47,996 nt of DNA from Pseudonocardia sp. (GTDB taxonomy: Bacteria; Actinomycetota; Actinomycetes; Mycobacteriales; Pseudonocardiaceae). Below are positions 4,672-46,112 of this stretch, piece after piece. Under the pieces are notes generated by a model that worked only from the letters and a program-made list of their open reading frames with translations, was not told the origin of the DNA and did not search any database. The stretch is from the NCBI GenBank assembly GCA_029266775.1, contig JAQSWF010000003.1, forward strand, positions 1 to 47,996. The letters are read 5' to 3'. A program made the position numbers and the translations under genes. The first letter of the stretch is position 1, and the number at the start of each line of letters is the position of its first letter.

Positions 4672-4740
4672 GGCGCGATCCTCGCACGTCCGAGCGTGAC
4701 GCCGGGTCACAAGTCGGACGGGGTGAGGCCGTAGGGCACC

Positions 4741-4872
4741 GTGCGACTCGCGGTACCGAGATGCACAACTCGCCGTGCGCAGATGGACAACTCGCCGTGC
4801 CCAGATGGACAACTCGCCGCGCACGAACGCACAACTCGCCGTGCGGAGGTGGACAACTCGCGGGTCAGCCGG
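4741..4872. repeat. 22-base tandem repeat, about five to six units
   Basis: Five imperfect 22-base units run from 4741 to 4850 (phases 4741, 4763, 4785, 4807, 4829), and a sixth decaying unit overlaps the regulator's stop codon (4865-4867). The shared part on the plus strand is ACAACTCGCCGTGC, often inside a GCAC...GTGC dyad. The same unit in the opposite orientation occurs at 42123-42201. The array fills most of the gap between the response regulator and its kinase. No spacers and no coding sense are apparent. Confidence 0.9.
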
Positions 4873-12115: not shown

Positions 12116-14539
12116 GTGATCCCCTCCTCCACCTACCGGATCCAGTTCTCGGCTGACACCACCTTCGCGGACGGGGTGGAGCTCCTGCCCTACCTGGACA
12201 CGTTGGGCGCCGGGGCGCTGTACGCGTCGCCGCTGCTGGAGTCGGGCGCCGGGTCGAACCACGGATACGACGTCGTCGACCCCACGCGGGTCTCCGGCGA
12301 GCGCGGCGGTGAGGAGGGGCGACGTGCCCTCGTTGCCGCCGTGCGGGAGCGGGGTCTGGGGTTCCTGCTCGACATCGTGCCGAACCACGTCGGCGTGGAC
12401 GTGCCGCAGGCCAACCCCTGGTGGCGGGACGTCCTCGCGCACGGTCGCCAGTCCCGCTACGCCGGGTACTTCGACATCGACTGGGCGGAGCCGATCCTGC
12501 TGCCCGTCCTCGGCGCGGAGCCGACGGCGGACGACGAGGAGAAGGTGATCGCGTCGGAGGTCACGCTCTCCGACGACCGCACCGAGCTGCACTACTACGA
12601 GCGCGCCTTCCCGGTGGCGCCGGGCACGGGTGACGAGGGCGGCCCCGTCGAGGTGCACGCCCGCCAGCATTACCGGCTCACCTCGTGGAAGCGGGGCGCC
12701 GCAGAGCTGACCTACCGCCGCTTCTTCGACATCTCCACGCTGGCCGCGGTGCGGGTCGAGGACCCGGAGGTGTTCGCCGCGGCGCACGCCGAGGTGCTGC
12801 GGTGGGTCGAGGCGGGCGAGGTCGACGGGCTGCGGGTGGACCACCCCGACGGCCTGTCCGACCCCGGCGGGTACGCGCGGCGGCTGCGGGCGGCCATCGG
12901 TCCGGACCGGTGGCTCCTGGTGGAGAAGATCCTCGGCGTCGGGGAGGAGCTGCCGGCGTCATGGCCGGTCGACGGCACCTCGGGCTACGAGGCGCTGCGG
13001 GAGATCTGCGGGGTGTTCGTCGACCCGGACGGCGCCGGGCTGCTCACCCAGCTCGCCGCCGAGCACACCGGCCGCAAGGAGAACGCGCACACCGTCGAGC
13101 ACACCGCCCGGCGGGAGGTCGCCGACACGATCCTGGCGGCCGAGGTGCGGCGCATCGCGGCGTTGGTCGCGGAGTTGCAGGAAAGCCACCTTGCTGCAAC
13201 CACATTGCAGGAAAGCCACCTTGCTGCAACCGACGCTGCAACGGCCGACGCGGACGGCGGCCCTCCGACGGAGAGCGTGCGGCAGGCCGTCGCCGAGCTG
13301 CTGTGCGGCTTCCCCGTCTACCGCAGCTACCTGCCCGAGGGCCGGTCCGCGCTCGACACCGCCGTGTCGGTCGCGATCGCCCACCGGCCGGACCTCGCCG
13401 ACATCGTCCGCGCGATCTCCGCCGCCATGCTCGCCGCTCCCGACGGGCAGCTCGCCACCCGCGTGCAGGAGACGTCGGGCATGATCATGGCGAAGGGCGT
13501 CGAGGACACCGCGTTCTACCGCTACAACCGCTTCGTCGCGCTGAACGAGGTCGGCGGCGACCCGGACCGGTTCGGCGTCTCGCTCGCCGAGTTCCACGAC
13601 CGGTCTTGTGGACGTGTCGCGGGCCGACCGGACACGATGACGACGCTGTCCACGCACGACACCAAGCGCTCAGAGGACGTGCGCGCCCGGCTCGCGGTGC
13701 TCGCCGAGATCCCCGGCGAGTGGGCGCCCCGGCTGCGGCGCTGGGCGGCGCGGCACCCGCTGCCCGATGGCTCGCTCGACCTGCTGGCCTGGCAGAGCCT
13801 CGTGGGCGCCTGGCCGATCTCGGCCGAGCGGCTCGCCGCGTACCTGGGGAAGGCGGCGAAGGAGGCCAAGGTCGTCACCAGCCACGTGGACCCGAACCCC
13901 GACGTGGACGCGACGATCGCGGCCTGGCCCGAGCAGGTGTTCGGGGAGCCCGAGACGGTGGCGGAGATCGAGGAGTTCGTCGCGCACATCGACACGCACG
14001 GCCGCAGCAACGCGCTCGGCCAGAAGCTGCTGCAGATCGCGGGACCCGGCGTGCCCGACGTCTACCAGGGCACTGAGCTGTTCGAGTACTCGCTGGTCGA
14101 CCCCGACAACCGGCGCGCGGTGGACTGGACACTGCGCCGCGAGCTGCTGGGCCGGCTCGACGACGGCTGGCTGCCCGAGTTCGGCGGCACCGACGTGGAC
14201 CCGCCGGGCGCCGCGAAGCTGCTGGTCACCTCGCGAGCACTGCGGCTGCGGCGAGCACGGCCCGAGCTCTTCGCCGGCTACCGCCCCCTGCCCGCCGAGG
14301 GCGCCGCCGCGGCGCACGTGGTGGCGTTCGCGCGGTCGCCGTCGCTGGTGGCCGTCGCGACCCGGCTGCCCGTGCGGCTCGCGGCCGCCGGCGGCTGGCG
14401 GGACACTCTGCTGCCGCTGCCGGACGGCGCGACCGGCTGGACGGACGTCCTCAGCGGCGCTGCGGTGTCCGGTAGCGCCCCGCACCTGGCGCAGGTGCTG
14501 TTCCGCTACCCGGTGGCGCTCCTCGTGCGGGCGGACTGA
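12116..14539 (+). CDS. treY: Maltooligosyl trehalose synthase
   Basis: GH13 enzyme (807 residues) that isomerises the reducing-end alpha-1,4 bond of maltooligosaccharides to alpha,alpha-1,1. Seen: STYRIQFSADTTFADG at the N-terminus, DIVPNHVGVD, nucleophile Asp242 in DGLRVDHPDGL, acid/base Glu270 in VEKILG, LSTHDTKRSEDVRARL and GPGVPDVYQGTEL near the end. GTG 12116 follows GAGGGA by five bases. Odd: residues 354-373 are a tandem duplication, LQESHLAATT then LQESHLAATD, encoded by two copies of the hairpin repeat seen elsewhere after genes. It lies in a region linking barrel segments, so function may be kept. Confidence 0.96.
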   Translation: MIPSSTYRIQFSADTTFADGVELLPYLDTLGAGALYASPLLESGAGSNHGYDVVDPTRVSGERGGEEGRRALVAAVRERGLGFLLDIVPNHVGVDVPQANPWWRDVLAHGRQSRYAGYFDIDWAEPILLPVLGAEPTADDEEKVIASEVTLSDDRTELHYYERAFPVAPGTGDEGGPVEVHARQHYRLTSWKRGAAELTYRRFFDISTLAAVRVEDPEVFAAAHAEVLRWVEAGEVDGLRVDHPDGLSDPGGYARRLRAAIGPDRWLLVEKILGVGEELPASWPVDGTSGYEALREICGVFVDPDGAGLLTQLAAEHTGRKENAHTVEHTARREVADTILAAEVRRIAALVAELQESHLAATTLQESHLAATDAATADADGGPPTESVRQAVAELLCGFPVYRSYLPEGRSALDTAVSVAIAHRPDLADIVRAISAAMLAAPDGQLATRVQETSGMIMAKGVEDTAFYRYNRFVALNEVGGDPDRFGVSLAEFHDRSCGRVAGRPDTMTTLSTHDTKRSEDVRARLAVLAEIPGEWAPRLRRWAARHPLPDGSLDLLAWQSLVGAWPISAERLAAYLGKAAKEAKVVTSHVDPNPDVDATIAAWPEQVFGEPETVAEIEEFVAHIDTHGRSNALGQKLLQIAGPGVPDVYQGTELFEYSLVDPDNRRAVDWTLRRELLGRLDDGWLPEFGGTDVDPPGAAKLLVTSRALRLRRARPELFAGYRPLPAEGAAAAHVVAFARSPSLVAVATRLPVRLAAAGGWRDTLLPLPDGATGWTDVLSGAAVSGSAPHLAQVLFRYPVALLVRAD
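13175..13229. repeat. Two tandem AAAG-CCA-CTT hairpin units inside treY
   Basis: Identical 25-base units at 13175-13199 and 13205-13229 (period 30) begin TTGCAGGAAAGCCACCTTG. Each folds as TTGCAGGAAAG, loop CCA, CCTTGCTGCAA with two mismatches. The unit differs by one base from the one after treZ at 16480-16504. The 30-base period keeps the treY frame open. Confidence 0.93.
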
Positions 14540-14708: not shown

Positions 14709-16457
14709 GTGCCCGTGGCTGAGTTCGCGGTCTGGGCGCCGCTCAAGCACCGGGTTCGGGTGCTGGTCGACCACCGCGCCCACATCATGAAGCAGGACGG
14801 CGCGGGTTGGTGGCGCGCCGACATCGCCGATGCCGGCCCCGGGACGGCGTACGCCTTCCTCCTCGACGACGACGAGACCCCGCTGCCCGACCCGCGCTCG
14901 CTGTGGCAGCCGACCGGAGTCCACTCGGCGTCGCGCCGCTACGACCACGACGCGTTCTTCTGGACCGACCGCTCCTGGACCGGGCGGCAGCTTCCTGGCT
15001 CGGTGCTCTACGAGTGCCACATCGGCACGTTCACCGAGGGTGGCACGTTCGACGCCGCGATCGAGAGGCTCAACCACCTCGTGTCGCTGGGCGTCGATCT
15101 CGTCGAGGTGCTGCCGGTCAACGCCGTCGACGGCGACCGCAACTGGGGCTACGACGGCGTCAGCTGGTACGCGGTGACCGAGAACTACGGCGGGCCGGAC
15201 GCGTTCAAGCGCTTCGTCGACGCCTGCCACGCCCGCGGGCTCGGCGTGGTGCTGGACGTCGTCTACAACCACCTGGGACCGTCCGGGGCCTACCTCGACC
15301 GGTTCGCGCCCTACTTCGGAGGCAGCACCGTCTGGGGGCCGTCGGTGAACCTGGACGGGGCGCACTCGGAGGAGGTGCGGCGCTACATCATCGACAACGC
15401 GCTGATGTGGCTGCGCGACTTCCACGTCGACGGTCTGCGCCTCGACGCCGTCCACGCCCTGCACGACGGGCGCGCGACCCACGTGCTCGAGCAGATGGCC
15501 GTCGAGGTCGAGGCGCTGTCGACGCACGTCGGGCGGCCGCTGTCGCTGATCGCGGAGTCCGACCTCAACGACGCGAAGATGGTGACCGCGCGGGAGGCGG
15601 GCGGGTACGGGCTTCAGGCGCAGTGGGCCGACGACGTGCACCACAGCCTGCACGTCGCGCTCACCGGTGAGAGGCAGGGCTACTACGCCGACTTCGCCAC
15701 CGCGGGGTTGACCGGGCTCGCCCACGTCCTGACGCGGGTGTTCCTGCACGAGGGCACCTGGAGCAGCTTCCGGGGCCGCAACCACGGCGCGCCGGTCGAC
15801 ACCCGCCGGACGCCGGCCCACCGTTTCGTCGCCTACCTGCAGAACCACGACCAGGTCGGCAACCGCGCGGTCGGGGACCGCAACGCTGCGTCGCTCACGC
15901 CGGGGCTCGTCGCCTGCGGCGCGGCGATCCTCTTCTGCTCGCCGTTCACGCCGATGCTGTTCATGGGCGAGGAGTGGGGCGCGCGCACGCCCTGGCAGTT
16001 CTTCGCCCACTTCCCCGATCAAGCGCTCAACGACGCCGTCCGGATCGGTCGCCGGTCGGAGTTCGCCGAGCACGGCTGGGACTCCGACGAGGAGGAGGTG
16101 CCCGACCCGACGACCGAGGAGACGTTCCGCGACTCCCACCTGGACTGGTCGGAGCCGGAGGAGGAGCCGCACTCGGCGCTTCTCATCGCGTACCGGGAGC
16201 TGATCGCGCTGCGCAAGGCGCGCCCCGAGCTGTCCGACCCGTGGCTCGACGACGTCGAGGTCGACGTCGACGAGGAGGCACGCACGCTCGTCCTGCACCG
16301 CGGCGGCCTGCGGCTGGCGGTCAACCTCGGTGACGAGCCGGTCAGCATCGCGCTCGGCGCGATCGAGCGGGTGCTGCTGGCGTCGGAGCCGGTGGACGTC
16401 GACGGCGACGCGCTGACCGTGAGCCCGGAGGCGTTCGCGATCGCCGAACTCGCCTGA
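14709..16457 (+). CDS. treZ: Malto-oligosyltrehalose trehalohydrolase
   Basis: GH13 enzyme (582 residues) that releases trehalose from the maltooligosyl trehalose made by TreY. An N-terminal beta domain (EFAVWAPLKHRVRVLVD) precedes the barrel. Motifs: VLDVVYNHLGPSG, nucleophile Asp246 in VDGLRLDAVHAL, Glu283 in SLIAESDLND, LQNHDQVGNRAVGD and MGEEWGARTPWQFF. GTG 14709 fits the N-terminus, with GTG 14715 as an alternative; the RBS is weak. It lies 169 bases after treY, a gap in which I see nothing notable. It is followed by a twin-hairpin repeat and convergent mdh. Confidence 0.95.
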   Translation: MPVAEFAVWAPLKHRVRVLVDHRAHIMKQDGAGWWRADIADAGPGTAYAFLLDDDETPLPDPRSLWQPTGVHSASRRYDHDAFFWTDRSWTGRQLPGSVLYECHIGTFTEGGTFDAAIERLNHLVSLGVDLVEVLPVNAVDGDRNWGYDGVSWYAVTENYGGPDAFKRFVDACHARGLGVVLDVVYNHLGPSGAYLDRFAPYFGGSTVWGPSVNLDGAHSEEVRRYIIDNALMWLRDFHVDGLRLDAVHALHDGRATHVLEQMAVEVEALSTHVGRPLSLIAESDLNDAKMVTAREAGGYGLQAQWADDVHHSLHVALTGERQGYYADFATAGLTGLAHVLTRVFLHEGTWSSFRGRNHGAPVDTRRTPAHRFVAYLQNHDQVGNRAVGDRNAASLTPGLVACGAAILFCSPFTPMLFMGEEWGARTPWQFFAHFPDQALNDAVRIGRRSEFAEHGWDSDEEEVPDPTTEETFRDSHLDWSEPEEEPHSALLIAYRELIALRKARPELSDPWLDDVEVDVDEEARTLVLHRGGLRLAVNLGDEPVSIALGAIERVLLASEPVDVDGDALTVSPEAFAIAELA

Positions 16458-16479: not shown

Positions 16480-16535
16480 TTGCAGGAAAGCCACCTTCCT
16501 GCAACGTGGTTGCGTGAACGTGGCTTTCCTGCAAC
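16480..16535. repeat. Inverted twin-hairpin repeat between treZ and mdh
   Basis: Two hairpin units face each other: 16480-16504 (TTGCAGGAAAG, CCA, CCTTCCTGCAA, one mismatch) and 16509-16535. Together they form a 15-base perfect inverted repeat, TTGCAGGAAAGCCAC with its complement GTGGCTTTCCTGCAA, 25 bases apart. Placed between two convergent stops, it is well suited to terminate both transcripts, although no U-tract is present. Confidence 0.9.
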
Positions 16536-29058: not shown

Positions 29059-29139
29059 GGCTCGGCGTGATCGCCGCGAATGTCACCCGACGGCGGCCGG
29101 GACAGCCCCCGGGCGACGCTCACGGGGATCAGCCGAGCC
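29059..29139. repeat. Long imperfect inverted repeat between trpE and tetR
   Basis: Outer arms GGCTCGGC (29059-29066) and GCCGAGCC (29132-29139) are perfect; inner arms from GATCGCCGCGAATGTC to GACGCTCACGGGGATC match at 12 of 16. The core 29068-29131 is a diverged copy of the element at 44902-44967 between bioF and bioD. Read on the minus strand it would encode [19 protein letters not shown], close to the N-terminus of BioD. It could terminate or regulate the divergent genes. Confidence 0.8.
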
Positions 29140-37967: not shown

Positions 37968-39562
37968 GCCGCCACCGCGGGAAGGTTCGTGCTGACAACG
38001 GGCCGTCCGGCGTTGTCGAGCGTGACGATCAGGCTGGCGCGCTGCCAGGCGTCGTCGCGCTCGGGGTGGTCGGTGCGGACGTGGCAGCCGCGGGTCTCGG
38101 TGCGGGTGCCGGCAGCGGCGAGCACCGCTGCAGCGAGCAGGGTCAGCGCGGCGTCCTCCACGTCGGCGCGGTCGCCTGCTGTGCCGGGCCCGGTTGCGGC
38201 CTCGACGGCGTCGGACGCGGCGGCGAGCCCGGCCGCGTCCCGGCCGATCCCCGCGCCGGCGCTCATCGCCCGCTGCACGACCGGGCGGTCGGCGACGGCG
38301 AGCACGCGCGCAGGCGCGGCACCGGAGGGGAGGCTGCGCGGCACGGCGAGCTCGGCGGCGACCGCGTGTGCGGCCCGTGCCCCGACGACGAGCCCCTCGA
38401 GCAGGGAATTCGACGCCAGCCGGTTCGCCCCGTGCAGCCCGGTGCGCGCGACCTCACCGGCCGCGTACAGGCCGCGTACCGGCGTCCGCCCGGCTGCGTC
38501 GGTGAGCACACCACCGCACGCGTAGTGGGCGGCAGGCGTGACCGGGATCGGTTCGCGGACCGGGTCGATGCCGGCCGCGCGGCAGGACGCCGTCACGGTC
38601 GGGAAGCGCCTCGCCACGTCCTCGACCCCGGTCGCGTCGAGCCAGACGCACTCCGCGCCCGTCTCGGCGAGGCGGCGGGTGATCGCGGCGGCGACGACGT
38701 CGCGGGGCGCGAGCTCGGCGAGCGGGTGCACGCCCACCATGAAGCGGGCGCCGGTGCGGTCGCGCAGCACACCACCCTCTCCACGGACGGCCTCGGTGAC
38801 GAGCGGCCGCACGCCCGTTCCCCCAGCCCCGGGCACGTGCAGGACCGTGGGGTGGAACTGCACGAACTCGAGATCCGCTGCGGGCGCCCCGGCACGCAGC
38901 GCGAGCGCGAGGCCGTCGCCGGTCGCGGTGGCCGGGTTGGTCGTGCTCGCGTAGAGCTGCCCGTAGCCGCCGGTGGCGAGCAGCACGGCCGGGGCTCGCA
39001 GCAGCCCGGCCCGGCCGGCATCGTCGAGCAGCGCGAGCCCCGCGACACCACCGTCGTCCGCGCGCAGCGTGTCGACGGCGAGCTGGCCGGTCAGCAGCGC
39101 GACCCCGCGCTCGCGGGCTGCGCCGAGCAGCGCTCGCTCGATCTCCGCGCCCGTGGCGTCACCCCCGGCGCGGATCACCCGGAAGGCCGAGTGCCCGCCC
39201 TCCCGCGTCCGCGCGAGCGCCCCGGTGCGCGCCCTGTCGAACGTCGCGCCCCGCGCCCGCAGCCGCGTGACCGCGGCCGGCCCGTCAGCGAGGATCGAGG
39301 CGACCGCCGCAGCGTCGCACAGGCCGGCCCCGGTAGTGATCGTGTCCGCGACGTGCGTCTCGACGCTGTCTCCCGGGACGTCGCCCAGTACCACCGCGAC
39401 GCCACCTTGAGCCCAGGTCGTCGCCCCGGCGTCGGCGGCGTCCTTCGTGACGACGACGACCCGCAGCCCGAGCTCCGCGGCCCCCAGCGCGGCGGTGAGA
39501 CCGGCGATCCCGCTGCCGACGACGACGAGGTCGGCGGCCGCCTCCCACGCCCCGCCGCTCAC
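37964..39562 (-). CDS. nadB: L-aspartate oxidase
   Basis: FAD enzyme (532 residues) that oxidises aspartate to iminoaspartate, the first step of de novo NAD synthesis. Seen: FAD motif [77 protein letters not shown] and [23 protein letters not shown] 39562 overlaps the nadA stop as GTGA. Confidence 0.96.
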
Positions 39563-42114: not shown

Positions 42115-42122
42115 CGCCGGCC

Positions 42123-42201
42123 ACGCCGCGAGTTGTCCGTCTGTGCACGGCGAGTTGTGCATCTCGGCACGGTGAATCGTGCGTCTGTGCACGGCGCAAA
42201 G
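42123..42201. repeat. 22-base tandem repeat, three units plus a partial
   Basis: Units at 42123-42144, 42145-42166 and 42167-42188, and a partial unit to 42201. The second unit reads GCACGGCGAGTTGTGCATCT and two more bases, the reverse complement of the units at 4741-4872. It begins nine bases after the stop of the Lon-N gene. Confidence 0.88.
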
Positions 42202-44212: not shown

Positions 44213-44967
44213 GGGCCGGGAGTCTGCCATCGGCCCCCCAGGGCCGGGGCCAGTCCGTGACGCGCGACGCTCGCAAAGGCCGGTCGCGCCAACGCTCCGG
44301 CGCCGTCGGGAAGCGTGCCGAGCAGCGGGACGCCGGTGACGGTGGGCAGGTCGCGGAGGTTCTCGCGCGCGGCACGGTCGGGATCCTCCGGCCAGGCTCC
44401 GATGACGACCCCGGAGCAGCCCAGCCCACGCGACCTCAGTGCCTCGACGGTGAGGGCCGCCACGTTGAGTGTGCCGAGCCCCGCGGCCGCGACGACGAGC
44501 ACGGGCGCGTCCAGCAGGGCGGCGACGTCGGCGAGCGTCCCCGGTGGGTCGTCGCAGAACCGGACCAGCAGCCCACCCGCGCCCTCGACCAGGACGAGGT
44601 CGTGCTCGACCGCGAGGGACGCGGCGGCGTCGGCGGCGGCGGCCGGGTCGAGGGGCGGCGTCCCGGCGCGACGCGCGGCTGTTGCCGGGGCGAGCGGCTC
44701 AGGGAAGCGGGCGAGCTCCACGGCGGTGAGGGGCCCGGCGAGCCGAGTGACGTCGTCGAGGTCCCCCGGCTGGCCGGGCGCAACCCCCGTCTGCACCGGT
44801 TTCAGCACGGCGACGCGCCCCGGAGCCAAGGCCGCGAGTGCGGCGGTGACGACCGTCTTGCCAACCCCCGTCCCGGTTCCGGTGACGACCAGGATCCGGC
44901 CGTGATCGCCGCGAGCGTCGCCCGACGGCGGCCGCGGCGACCCTGCGGCGACGCTCGCGGGGATCAC
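44209..44967 (-). CDS. bioD: Dethiobiotin synthetase
   Basis: ATP-dependent carboxylase (252 residues) that closes the ureido ring of dethiobiotin. The P-loop [17 protein letters not shown] is normally within the first 15 residues; here it begins near residue 29. The extra residues ([19 protein letters not shown] and on) and the GTG start at 44967 lie inside the inverted repeat 44902-44967, and no other start exists before the P-loop. Also seen: VLKPVQTGV and [12 protein letters not shown]. It overlaps the bioF stop as GTGA and the bioB start. Confidence 0.93.
44902..44967. repeat. Inverted-repeat element forming the bioD N-terminus
   Basis: Arms of 21 bases, GTGATCGCCGCGAGCGTCGC at 44902 and its partner ending GATCAC at 44967, match at 20 positions with 24 bases between. 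It is a close copy of the element at 29059-29139. The bioD start codon is its last three bases, and bioF's stop overlaps it. Confidence 0.85.
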
Positions 44968-46112
44968 CGGACGCCGGCCGGCGCCAGCACATCGGCCAGC
45001 ACCTCGTCCGCCCGGGCCAGCTCGATGTCGGTCAGGGTGGCCCGGGCGGTGAGCCGCAGCCGGCTGGTGCCCTCGGGCACAGACGGCGGCCGGAAGCAGC
45101 CCACCCGTACCCCACGCTCGAGAAGCCGCCGGGCCTGCGCTACCGCGACCTCCGGGTCCCCCACCACCACGGGCACGACCGCCGACGGCGGCGCAGGCAC
45201 CCCCGCCGCGGCGGCCAGCGCGGCCGCATGGCGCAGCGCGGCAGCCGGCCGCTCCGGCTCGGCACCCAGCACGTCGAGCGCGGCCAGCGCCGCACCGACC
45301 GCGGCCGGCGCGAGGCCGGTGTCGAAGATGAACGGACGGGCGGTGTCGACGAGGTGCGCGACCACCGCGCCCGGCCCCAGCACGGCCCCGCCCTGCCCGC
45401 CCAACGCCTTGGATAGCGTGACGGTTGCGACGACGTCGTCGGCGCCGGCGAGCCCGACCTCCGCCAGGAGCCCGCGCCCGCCCGGCCCGCGCACGCCCAG
45501 CGCATGCGCCTCGTCTACCACCAGCAGCGCACCCCGTGCCCGGCACGCGGCGTGTAGCTCCCGCAGCGGCGCCGTCCCGCCGTCGACGCTGTCGACGCTC
45601 TCGGTCACCACCAGAACCCGCGCCTCGGTGCGTGCCGTGAGCGCGGCGTCGACGGCGCCCACATCTCCGTGCGGCACCACCCCGACCCGCGCCCTCGACA
45701 GCCGGCAACCGTCGACGATCGAGGCGTGGTTCGCCGCGTCGGAGACCACCAGCGCGCCCGGCCCGGACAGGGCCGCGAGCACGCCGAGGTTCGCCGCGTA
45801 GCCGGAGGAGAACACGAGCGCATCGGCGAACCCGGTGAAGGTGGCCAGAGCACGCTCCAGCTCGACGTGCAGGGTCGTGGTGCCCGTGACCAGCCGCGAT
45901 CCCGTGGCGCCCGCCCCCCACATCCGCACCGCGGCCACCGCCCCGGCGATGACGCGGGGGTCGTTCGCGAGGCCCAGGTAGTCGTTGCCGGCGAGGTCGA
46001 GCACGGCCTCGTCCGCGGCTCGCGGGCTCAGCTCACGGCGCAGGCCCGCGGCGCGGCGGTGGGCGGCGTGCGGGTCGAGCCAGGCGAGGGGATGCGGGAA
46101 CGGCGCGGCCAC
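44964..46112 (-). CDS. bioF: 8-amino-7-oxononanoate synthase
   Basis: PLP enzyme (382 residues) that condenses pimeloyl-ACP/CoA with alanine. Seen: [70 protein letters not shown] and the PLP Lys in [21 protein letters not shown] 46112 lies six bases after TATGGT. It starts bioF-bioD-bioB-bsaP, 24 bases after bioA. Confidence 0.96.

Follow-up and report, generated by a model that had tools for sequence, protein, structure and literature searches.

Protein-coding palindromes are said, going by the title of a 2002 report by Ogata, to be a feature of Rickettsia. Such palindromes were then reported in Wolbachia, with inserts similar to the Wolbachia palindromic element (WPE) in addA, addB and priA (PMC4224334; statements on papers cited by PMC number refer throughout to the excerpts available). 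Rickettsia palindromic elements (RPEs) are about 150 bp long, and nearly half of those first reported were coding (PMC10969869). Intragenic dimers or grouped repeats of the repetitive extragenic palindromic (REP) type encode 20-30 residues, for which a role as flexible linkers or loops has been proposed, and the CGTC repeats of this type are not associated with a transposase (PMC3733652). In Pseudonocardia, repeats are mentioned only generally or as clustered regularly interspaced short palindromic repeats (CRISPR) in the available excerpts of PMC6325685 and PMC11412249. Here we describe a repeat lying in frame within treY, the gene for maltooligosyltrehalose synthase, in a 47,996-nucleotide stretch of Pseudonocardia sp. 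DNA (the window; contig C244, JAQSWF010000003.1) from a draft genome of 3.42 Mb, designated G000, whose TreY has its best named relatives in Pseudonocardia. The treY insert is very probably a member of a small (55 bp), non-autonomous, proliferating family of palindromes, seen so far only in Pseudonocardia, that is tolerated within genes in a single frame.

The treY gene occupies positions 12116..14539 of the window on the + strand and encodes 807 aa when translated from the GTG at 12116; the product matches the NCBIfam model TIGR02401 with 838 bits across residues 3-805, and its solved structural relatives are 6lcu, 5zcr and 1iv8. Two identical 25-base units, TTGCAGGAAAGCCACCTTGCTGCAA, lie in direct orientation on the + strand at 13175..13199 and 13205..13229, with a period of 30 and the 5-base spacer CCACA (13200..13204) between them. 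Each unit encodes LQESHLAA in frame (residues 354-361 and 364-371), and the repeat as a whole encodes residues 354-373, LQESHLAATTLQESHLAATD. Both the exact duplication and the in-frame position had been described in a first-pass annotation of the window and were borne out. That annotation had also proposed that a repeat had entered a tolerated loop without breaking the frame, and comparison with the solved enzyme 6lcu supports this: in a phmmer alignment, a hypervariable stretch of 32 residues (354-385; 13175..13270, + strand), consisting of the element and a variable tail, faces 2 residues of 6lcu (query 353 then 386; chain 344 then 347). In an AlphaFold model of TreY (21 sequences, mean predicted local distance difference test score (pLDDT) 87.6), the helix 341-366 extends into the insert, and residues 369-383 are the sole segment with pLDDT below 50. 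We infer that the loop lies at the protein surface, the point on which the annotation had suggested modelling. Taken with the family described below, these data support the entry of a dispersed repeat into a coding loop of treY in frame, treY being one case of several.

The typical member of the family is an inverted pair. The annotation had likened the treY unit to a unit found after treZ; one base of 25 indeed differs (16480-16504), but this is not a lone unit: it forms one arm of a 55-bp inverted pair at 16480..16534, in which 5 bp separate it from a reverse unit (model R1, E 4e-18; the copy is one of 34 used to build R1). The pair sits in the spacer between treZ (ending at 16457; TIGR02402) and a convergent malate dehydrogenase gene (NF003916). 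The family element is a 55-bp palindrome of 25+5+25 bases, with a consensus from 41 G000 copies of TTGCAGGAAAGCCACCTTCATGCAA-CCNGG-TTGCATGAAGGTGGCTTTCCTGCAA. With up to 3 mismatches allowed, G000 contains 93 unit matches (47 on the + and 46 on the - strand) at 90 distinct places, three of which match both strands, and the reversed pattern, used as a control, has 0 matches in this genome. The orientations of the 49 G000 elements read were +- in 42, -+ in 2, ++ in 1 (treY) and -- in 1, with 3 single units. A -+ subtype, in which the inner sequence is inverted (CAGCAAGGTGGCC...), predominates in the genome of a sister species, G003, and the consensus differs from genome to genome, each having its own version. 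The two -+ copies of the +- dominated G000, C45:3923-3977 (L066) and C278:5824-5878 (L092), are of the G003 type. The palindrome is well paired (92% of cells over 34 copies). A structure of two small hairpins rather than one long palindrome was considered and rejected on an alignment, A2, of 18 of the 41 +- copies of G000 and 16 copies from G007, G018 and G023, in which 25 cells were changed on both sides under the long palindrome vs 6 under the alternative; in the -+ alignment, A3, neither structure stood clearly above shuffles. In G003, two near-identical elements 153 bases apart (L103, C207; 2915-2969 and 3068-3122) also have identical near flanks, so that the element was probably duplicated along with its surroundings.

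The family is widespread in the genus. Among 62 Pseudonocardia genomes, one per species, the sequence-only models R1 and R2 (E <=0.001) found matches in at least 38 and at least 20, respectively, and in at least 39 jointly; since palindromes are counted on both strands and limited candidates were scored, these counts, made without a shuffled control, are presence calls and lower bounds. The calls are weak in 5 of the 39 genomes (G001, G008, G025, G031 and G085; best E 1e-6 to 2e-4), and 23 of the 62 have no match at the model threshold. At order level, a search that scored 19 candidates per genome, which makes the absence outside the genus provisional, matched 1 of 298 genomes, G000 itself. 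No Rfam 15 family reached its gathering score in the window. Membership in this family bears on an alternative origin of the treY repeat, in which local slippage within a low-complexity loop produced it and its likeness to the dispersed family is fortuitous; we regard this as highly improbable. The loop, bounded by AAEVRRIA and FPVYRSYL, is hypervariable and of low complexity in some relatives, and its two units are exact direct copies, as that explanation would have it; however, 0.00 matches of the unit pattern are expected by chance in the window (100 shuffles), the treY unit is one mismatch away from 13 of the 88 other G000 units, and in the sister species G003 the corresponding codon holds a full element, encoding LQQGGHAAIGLEQGHPAAI.

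What sets the G000 treY copy apart within the family is its direct arrangement. Direct-orientation pairs were found by pattern search (<=3 mismatches) at 4 places in the 62 genomes, the three besides treY being G007 C121:26265-26319, G018 C119:9189-9243 and G000 C303:2429-2483. The G018 pair is in frame in CobN, so that 2 of the 4 matches are coding, in a small sample. Further direct forms among 107 copies read in detail were one pair (L106, 2629-2683) and two -++ triples (L192 and L203), all in G003. Slippage or inversion may have given rise to the direct arrangement, and in treY of G000 the element would have been reworked, at a later time, into two identical direct units. RNA folding differs correspondingly: the treY copy folds weakly (z -1.5), whereas four inverted copies fold strongly (z -6.4 to -11.8; the copy at 16480-16534 has z -6.4). 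The term hairpin used in the first-pass annotation thus fits the family better than the treY copy.

The genomic position of the family was read from 131 copies with their flanks (107 + 24), a non-random sample that is nearly complete at threshold for G000 and otherwise consists mostly of the best-scoring copies of G003, G007, G018, G023, G032 and G063. The earlier statement that the repeat usually sits after genes agrees with this sample of a dispersed family, which lies mostly in spacers adjoining the 3' end of a gene. The genes flanking the 117 copies that are non-coding under the test given below are tandem in 71 cases, convergent in 35, divergent in 6 and unclear in 5, counts that stand without a random-spacer baseline. 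Such positions, together with the strong RNA hairpins of the four inverted copies, are what one would expect if the spacer copies were bidirectional terminators or mRNA stabilisers under selection and the coding copies accidents of their spread. The scarcity of divergent neighbours among the 112 classified copies may, however, reflect promoter avoidance alone; moreover, the consensus has no T-run, more than a third of the congeneric genomes (23/62) have no match at threshold, and some copies are found within the coding regions of CobN, SMC and NadB, in which strong termination would presumably be costly. We consider this explanation unlikely, and favor instead a proliferating element whose copies would settle mainly in spacers adjoining gene ends. 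In a separate comparison, insertion of the element into the loop of a pre-existing terminator was rejected, since the complementarity of the flanks did not exceed that of shuffles (477/500 and 346/500 were as high).

A copy was scored as coding when one frame stayed open for at least 25 codons past each of its ends and the flanking sequence on either side (up to 150 bases each) also scored as coding in this frame; the codon model used had been trained on 221 long open reading frames from the fetched loci. By this test, 14 of the 131 copies are coding (12/107 and 2/24). All 14 are read in frame 1, although frame 2 is open in 14 and frame 3 in 9 of them, and the probability of this choice among open frames is (1/2)^5 x (1/3)^9, or ~2e-6, a figure somewhat weakened by the non-independence of the two treY copies and of two copies in a single E2 gene. 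Frame 1 yields a polar peptide, e.g. LQESHLHATSLHEGGFPAT, with 19 residues from 55 bp + 2, starting with LQ in 12 copies, FQ in 1 and VQ in 1; the unused frames yield peptides of the CRKATF..KVAFLQ or AGKPP..(stop)RWLSC types. Copies landing in genes would be tolerated if they keep the reading frame, in the frame of the polar peptide, and in loops or between domains where this is visible, with selection acting against the two other frames.

The coding copies belong to 12 host gene families: treY (two species), CobN, CobG, CydD, the SMC hinge, NadB, glycerate kinase, E2 acyltransferase (two copies), an O-methyltransferase, a DHB-AMP-ligase-like protein, an AbrB-like protein and a DUF6541 membrane protein. 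Gene names derive from NCBIfam or Pfam models, except the O-methyltransferase, named through solved relatives; the ligase, the E2 acyltransferase and CobG (whose gene is truncated where its sequence stretch ends) score below the equivalog cut-off of the model that names them. Family models extend across the element in TreY, NadB, CobN, CobG, CydD, SMC and SMC_hinge, and AbrB. In several genes the element lies between aligned blocks: in the alignment of the O-methyltransferase with CalO6 (4z2y), CalO6 has a gap of 19 residues at the element, equal to the 19 codons of 55 bp + 2, residues 235-275 of glycerate kinase face 9 residues of 3cwc, residues 786-838 of CobN face one residue of 7c6o, and residues 274-307 of the DHB-AMP-ligase-like protein face one residue of 5wm2, the preceding block being weak (i-Evalue 0.0039). 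In CydD, the element stands directly ahead of the ATPase block, which starts at 364, and in the E2 acyltransferase the elements stand between the lipoyl, E3-binding and catalytic domains. This single E2 gene (L194 of G003) contains two elements of different subtype, at 1952-2006 and 2183-2237, one per linker. An artefact of assembly might be suspected in a draft such as G000, with its 318 contigs and 88.5% completeness, but coding copies also occur in other genomes, including G063, which is assembled into 4 contigs and has them in SMC and NadB; such an origin is scarcely credible.

The TreY loop was followed across species in an alignment of 79 sequences (three genomes are in both collections). 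From Pseudonocardia, 59 treY genes were fetched and 58 gave readable loops; G023 lacks the region, and G020, G028 and G084 were omitted for partial or weak matches. By eye, the element is present in the loop in 4 of the 58 genomes (G000, G003, G007 and G032) and in 0 of 17 sequences from other genera. The treY copies of G007 (SQQGGSAPVQSEESHPAV) and G032 (SQQGGLDPIQSEQGHPAG) are decayed. Model R2 matches the treY copy of G003 at C271:15176-15230, a member of its training set, and that of G032 at C249:25757-25807 (E 9e-11), which is outside it. The first-pass annotation had asked whether the insert is unique to this TreY, and had taken conservation of the peptide in distant TreY proteins as the sign of an ancestral sequence. 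No such conservation was seen in other genera, while uniqueness holds towards those genera and fails within Pseudonocardia, where three other species have the element in the same loop. Descent of the peptide from an ancestral TreY would account for its presence at one site in four species, but is barely conceivable, as the element was not seen in 54 of the 58 Pseudonocardia loops that could be read or in any of the 17 from other genera, and as similar peptides occur in unrelated proteins. In G023 (C38, L175), TreY makes an in-frame jump from TILAA to SGMVMAKG, and ~110 residues including the loop are gone through a deletion or an assembly fault.

Some of the treY copies are young or have been kept uniform. 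The G003 copy differs at 2 of 55 positions from another G003 copy and the G000 unit nearly matches other units of its own genome, as given above, despite 58% identity of four-fold sites between the treY genes of G000 and G003, indicating that the copies of these two genomes are recent or homogenised. On a TreY tree built with the loop removed, the carriers (G000 with G003, G007, and G032) need three changes, equal to the number forced by the starred branches. The history of the G007 and G032 copies speaks less clearly for repeated entry: 31 of 500 label shuffles need equally few changes, 13 of 55 positions separate the two copies, and the G007 copy is 11 differences from a G032 copy vs 22 from the nearest of 9 G007 copies. 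On these grounds, and with both copies decayed, the treY elements may stem from one old insertion followed by many losses.

A second recurrently occupied gene is nadB, encoding L-aspartate oxidase. In a sample of 31 NadB sequences (30 loci and the window, from 60 genomes with a match), 7 have the element by eye: G063, G068, G005, G009, G071, G007 and G023. The first six group together as a single clade in the TreY tree; the window's own NadB (37982-39556) is without the element. The NadB copies retain 18 to 25 of the 25 palindrome pairs, all 25 in G007. The arms of six orthologues (G023 excluded) show 0-3 paired double changes in 15 pairwise comparisons vs 0.00-2.43 expected.

Turnover between close relatives was read from the pair G063 and G068, in which TreY is 95% identical, four-fold sites are 87% identical and located pieces 89-99%. 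From G063, 24 elements were fetched and 15 loci sought in G068, of which 13, with 14 elements, could be located and compared: G068 has an element at 9 of the 14 sites and lacks it at 3, while 1 keeps a 9-base remnant and 1 was left unassigned. Base-by-base comparison of 7 of the 9 shared sites (L234 and L240 were dropped for gapped alignments) gave 9 paired double changes in which the pair is kept and 11 one-sided changes, vs 1.7 coincidences expected. Three of the 7 sites account for all of the double changes (4, 2 and 3), and this clustering points to whole-copy replacement or conversion rather than slow compensation. Both arms would thus change together, leaving the copies within a genome with a shared dialect, for which homogenisation or re-insertion is the probable cause. 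We tentatively extend this to coding copies: it is possible, though somewhat doubtful, that the palindromes in treY and nadB keep being rewritten to the dialect of their genome, both arms jointly, by gene conversion or templated copying in the palindrome. In that case, protein loops would continue to be edited by a selfish DNA family well after its insertion, with those of treY and nadB serving as preferred, repeatedly used entry ports.

Scattered positions, presence or absence between close species, and orthologues without the peptide together suggest that the element moves by insertion, presumably through an enzyme acting in trans. A number of results pull the other way. No clean empty site was found between G063 and G068, the three element-free sites differing also in their flanks, and the remnant site in G068 resembles a loss. 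No excess of target-site duplications of 2-9 bp over mismatched pairs was seen in sets of 41 and 31 copies. Covariation in the alignment of the -+ subtype is within shuffles (score reached by 184/500, paired cells by 479/500), and co-evolution of the NadB arms is mixed, several comparisons being about as expected. The coding copies themselves are predicted from open frames and codon use, with protein products deduced from them. Finally, no candidate for a mobilising enzyme emerged, the tyrosine transposase Y1_Tnp (PF01797) being absent from G000 (88.5% complete), G007, G016, G018, G023 and G063.

This last result bears on whether the units represent REPs that a Y1 tyrosine transposase mobilises, as in systems combining REPs with a REP-associated tyrosine transposase (RAYT). 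In the size of its units, the opposite orientation of the pairs and its intergenic position, the family is like REP dimers (PMC3733652). However, Y1_Tnp occurs in only 5 of the 62 genomes (G003, which is rich in R2 matches, G008, G015, G019 and G021) and, among the 23 that have 48 or more R1 matches, in 2 (G015 and G021), leaving 21 without it; the element-rich, 4-contig G063 has no match to it; and no fixed tag was found, CGTC/GACG standing at 4 of 41 junctions and GTAG/CTAC within or next to 3 of 41 G000 copies. A REP/RAYT system is hence very unlikely here.

The position of this family among described systems follows from several such comparisons. With RPEs and WPEs it shares dispersed palindromes standing in frame in unrelated conserved genes, where they are apparently tolerated (PMC10969869, PMC4224334). 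It differs from RPEs in length, 55 bp vs ~150 bp, a separation made by description and not by sequence, and in its coding share, 14/131 vs nearly half of the first-reported RPEs (PMC10969869), and from both in its free-living, high-GC, actinobacterial host. REP dimers are likewise small palindromic units, often in opposite pairs, mainly intergenic, with tagged ones also lying within open reading frames in several phyla (PMC3733652). Unlike GTAG and CGTC REPs, the Pseudonocardia element has no fixed unpaired tag, and unlike in the GTAG group, a RAYT gene is missing from G000 and most element-rich genomes; as CGTC repeats lack a transposase association, this absence does not argue against a likeness to them (PMC3733652). 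Actinobacteria are not among the phyla named in the available excerpts of PMC3733652. Miniature inverted-repeat transposable elements (MITEs) and RU repeats are also small and non-autonomous, contain inverted repeats and form in-frame fusions with some genes (PMC10969869, PMC2759123), and the Pseudonocardia element shares terminal inverted repeats with MITEs. It lacks their target-site duplication, is shorter than the enterobacterial RU-1 to RU-3 (103-168 bp; PMC2759123), and differs from both in that its palindrome spans the entire element. As the comparisons of REP tag, RPE length and MITE target duplication all failed, the element is filed under none of these groups. No literature on it was found among the matches listed for openly licensed PMC papers and, the kind being known, we read the element as a new family of protein-coding interspersed palindromes.

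Protein-coding palindromes are thereby placed in an actinobacterial genus, in smc, cobN, nadB and treY, where close species pairs allow presence, absence and replacement to be read at orthologous sites. The mobiliser, the single frame and the effect of the extra 19 residues become testable in bacteria outside the intracellular groups, and the element accounts for species-specific insertions that might otherwise pass for functional loops.

The window contains two further repeats. One consists of 22-base tandem units of the ACAACTCGCCGTGC... type, with five in-register copies at 4724-4861 and an inverted partial array at 42115-42196, 37 kb from the first; among the fetched G000 loci, its exact 14-base core occurs in the window only. 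The other, of ~71 bp, is present at 29066-29136 and 44901-44971 in copies that are 82% identical and are both crossed by open frames; the copy at 44901-44971 also forms an inverted repeat on its own, its 33-base arms being 82% complementary.

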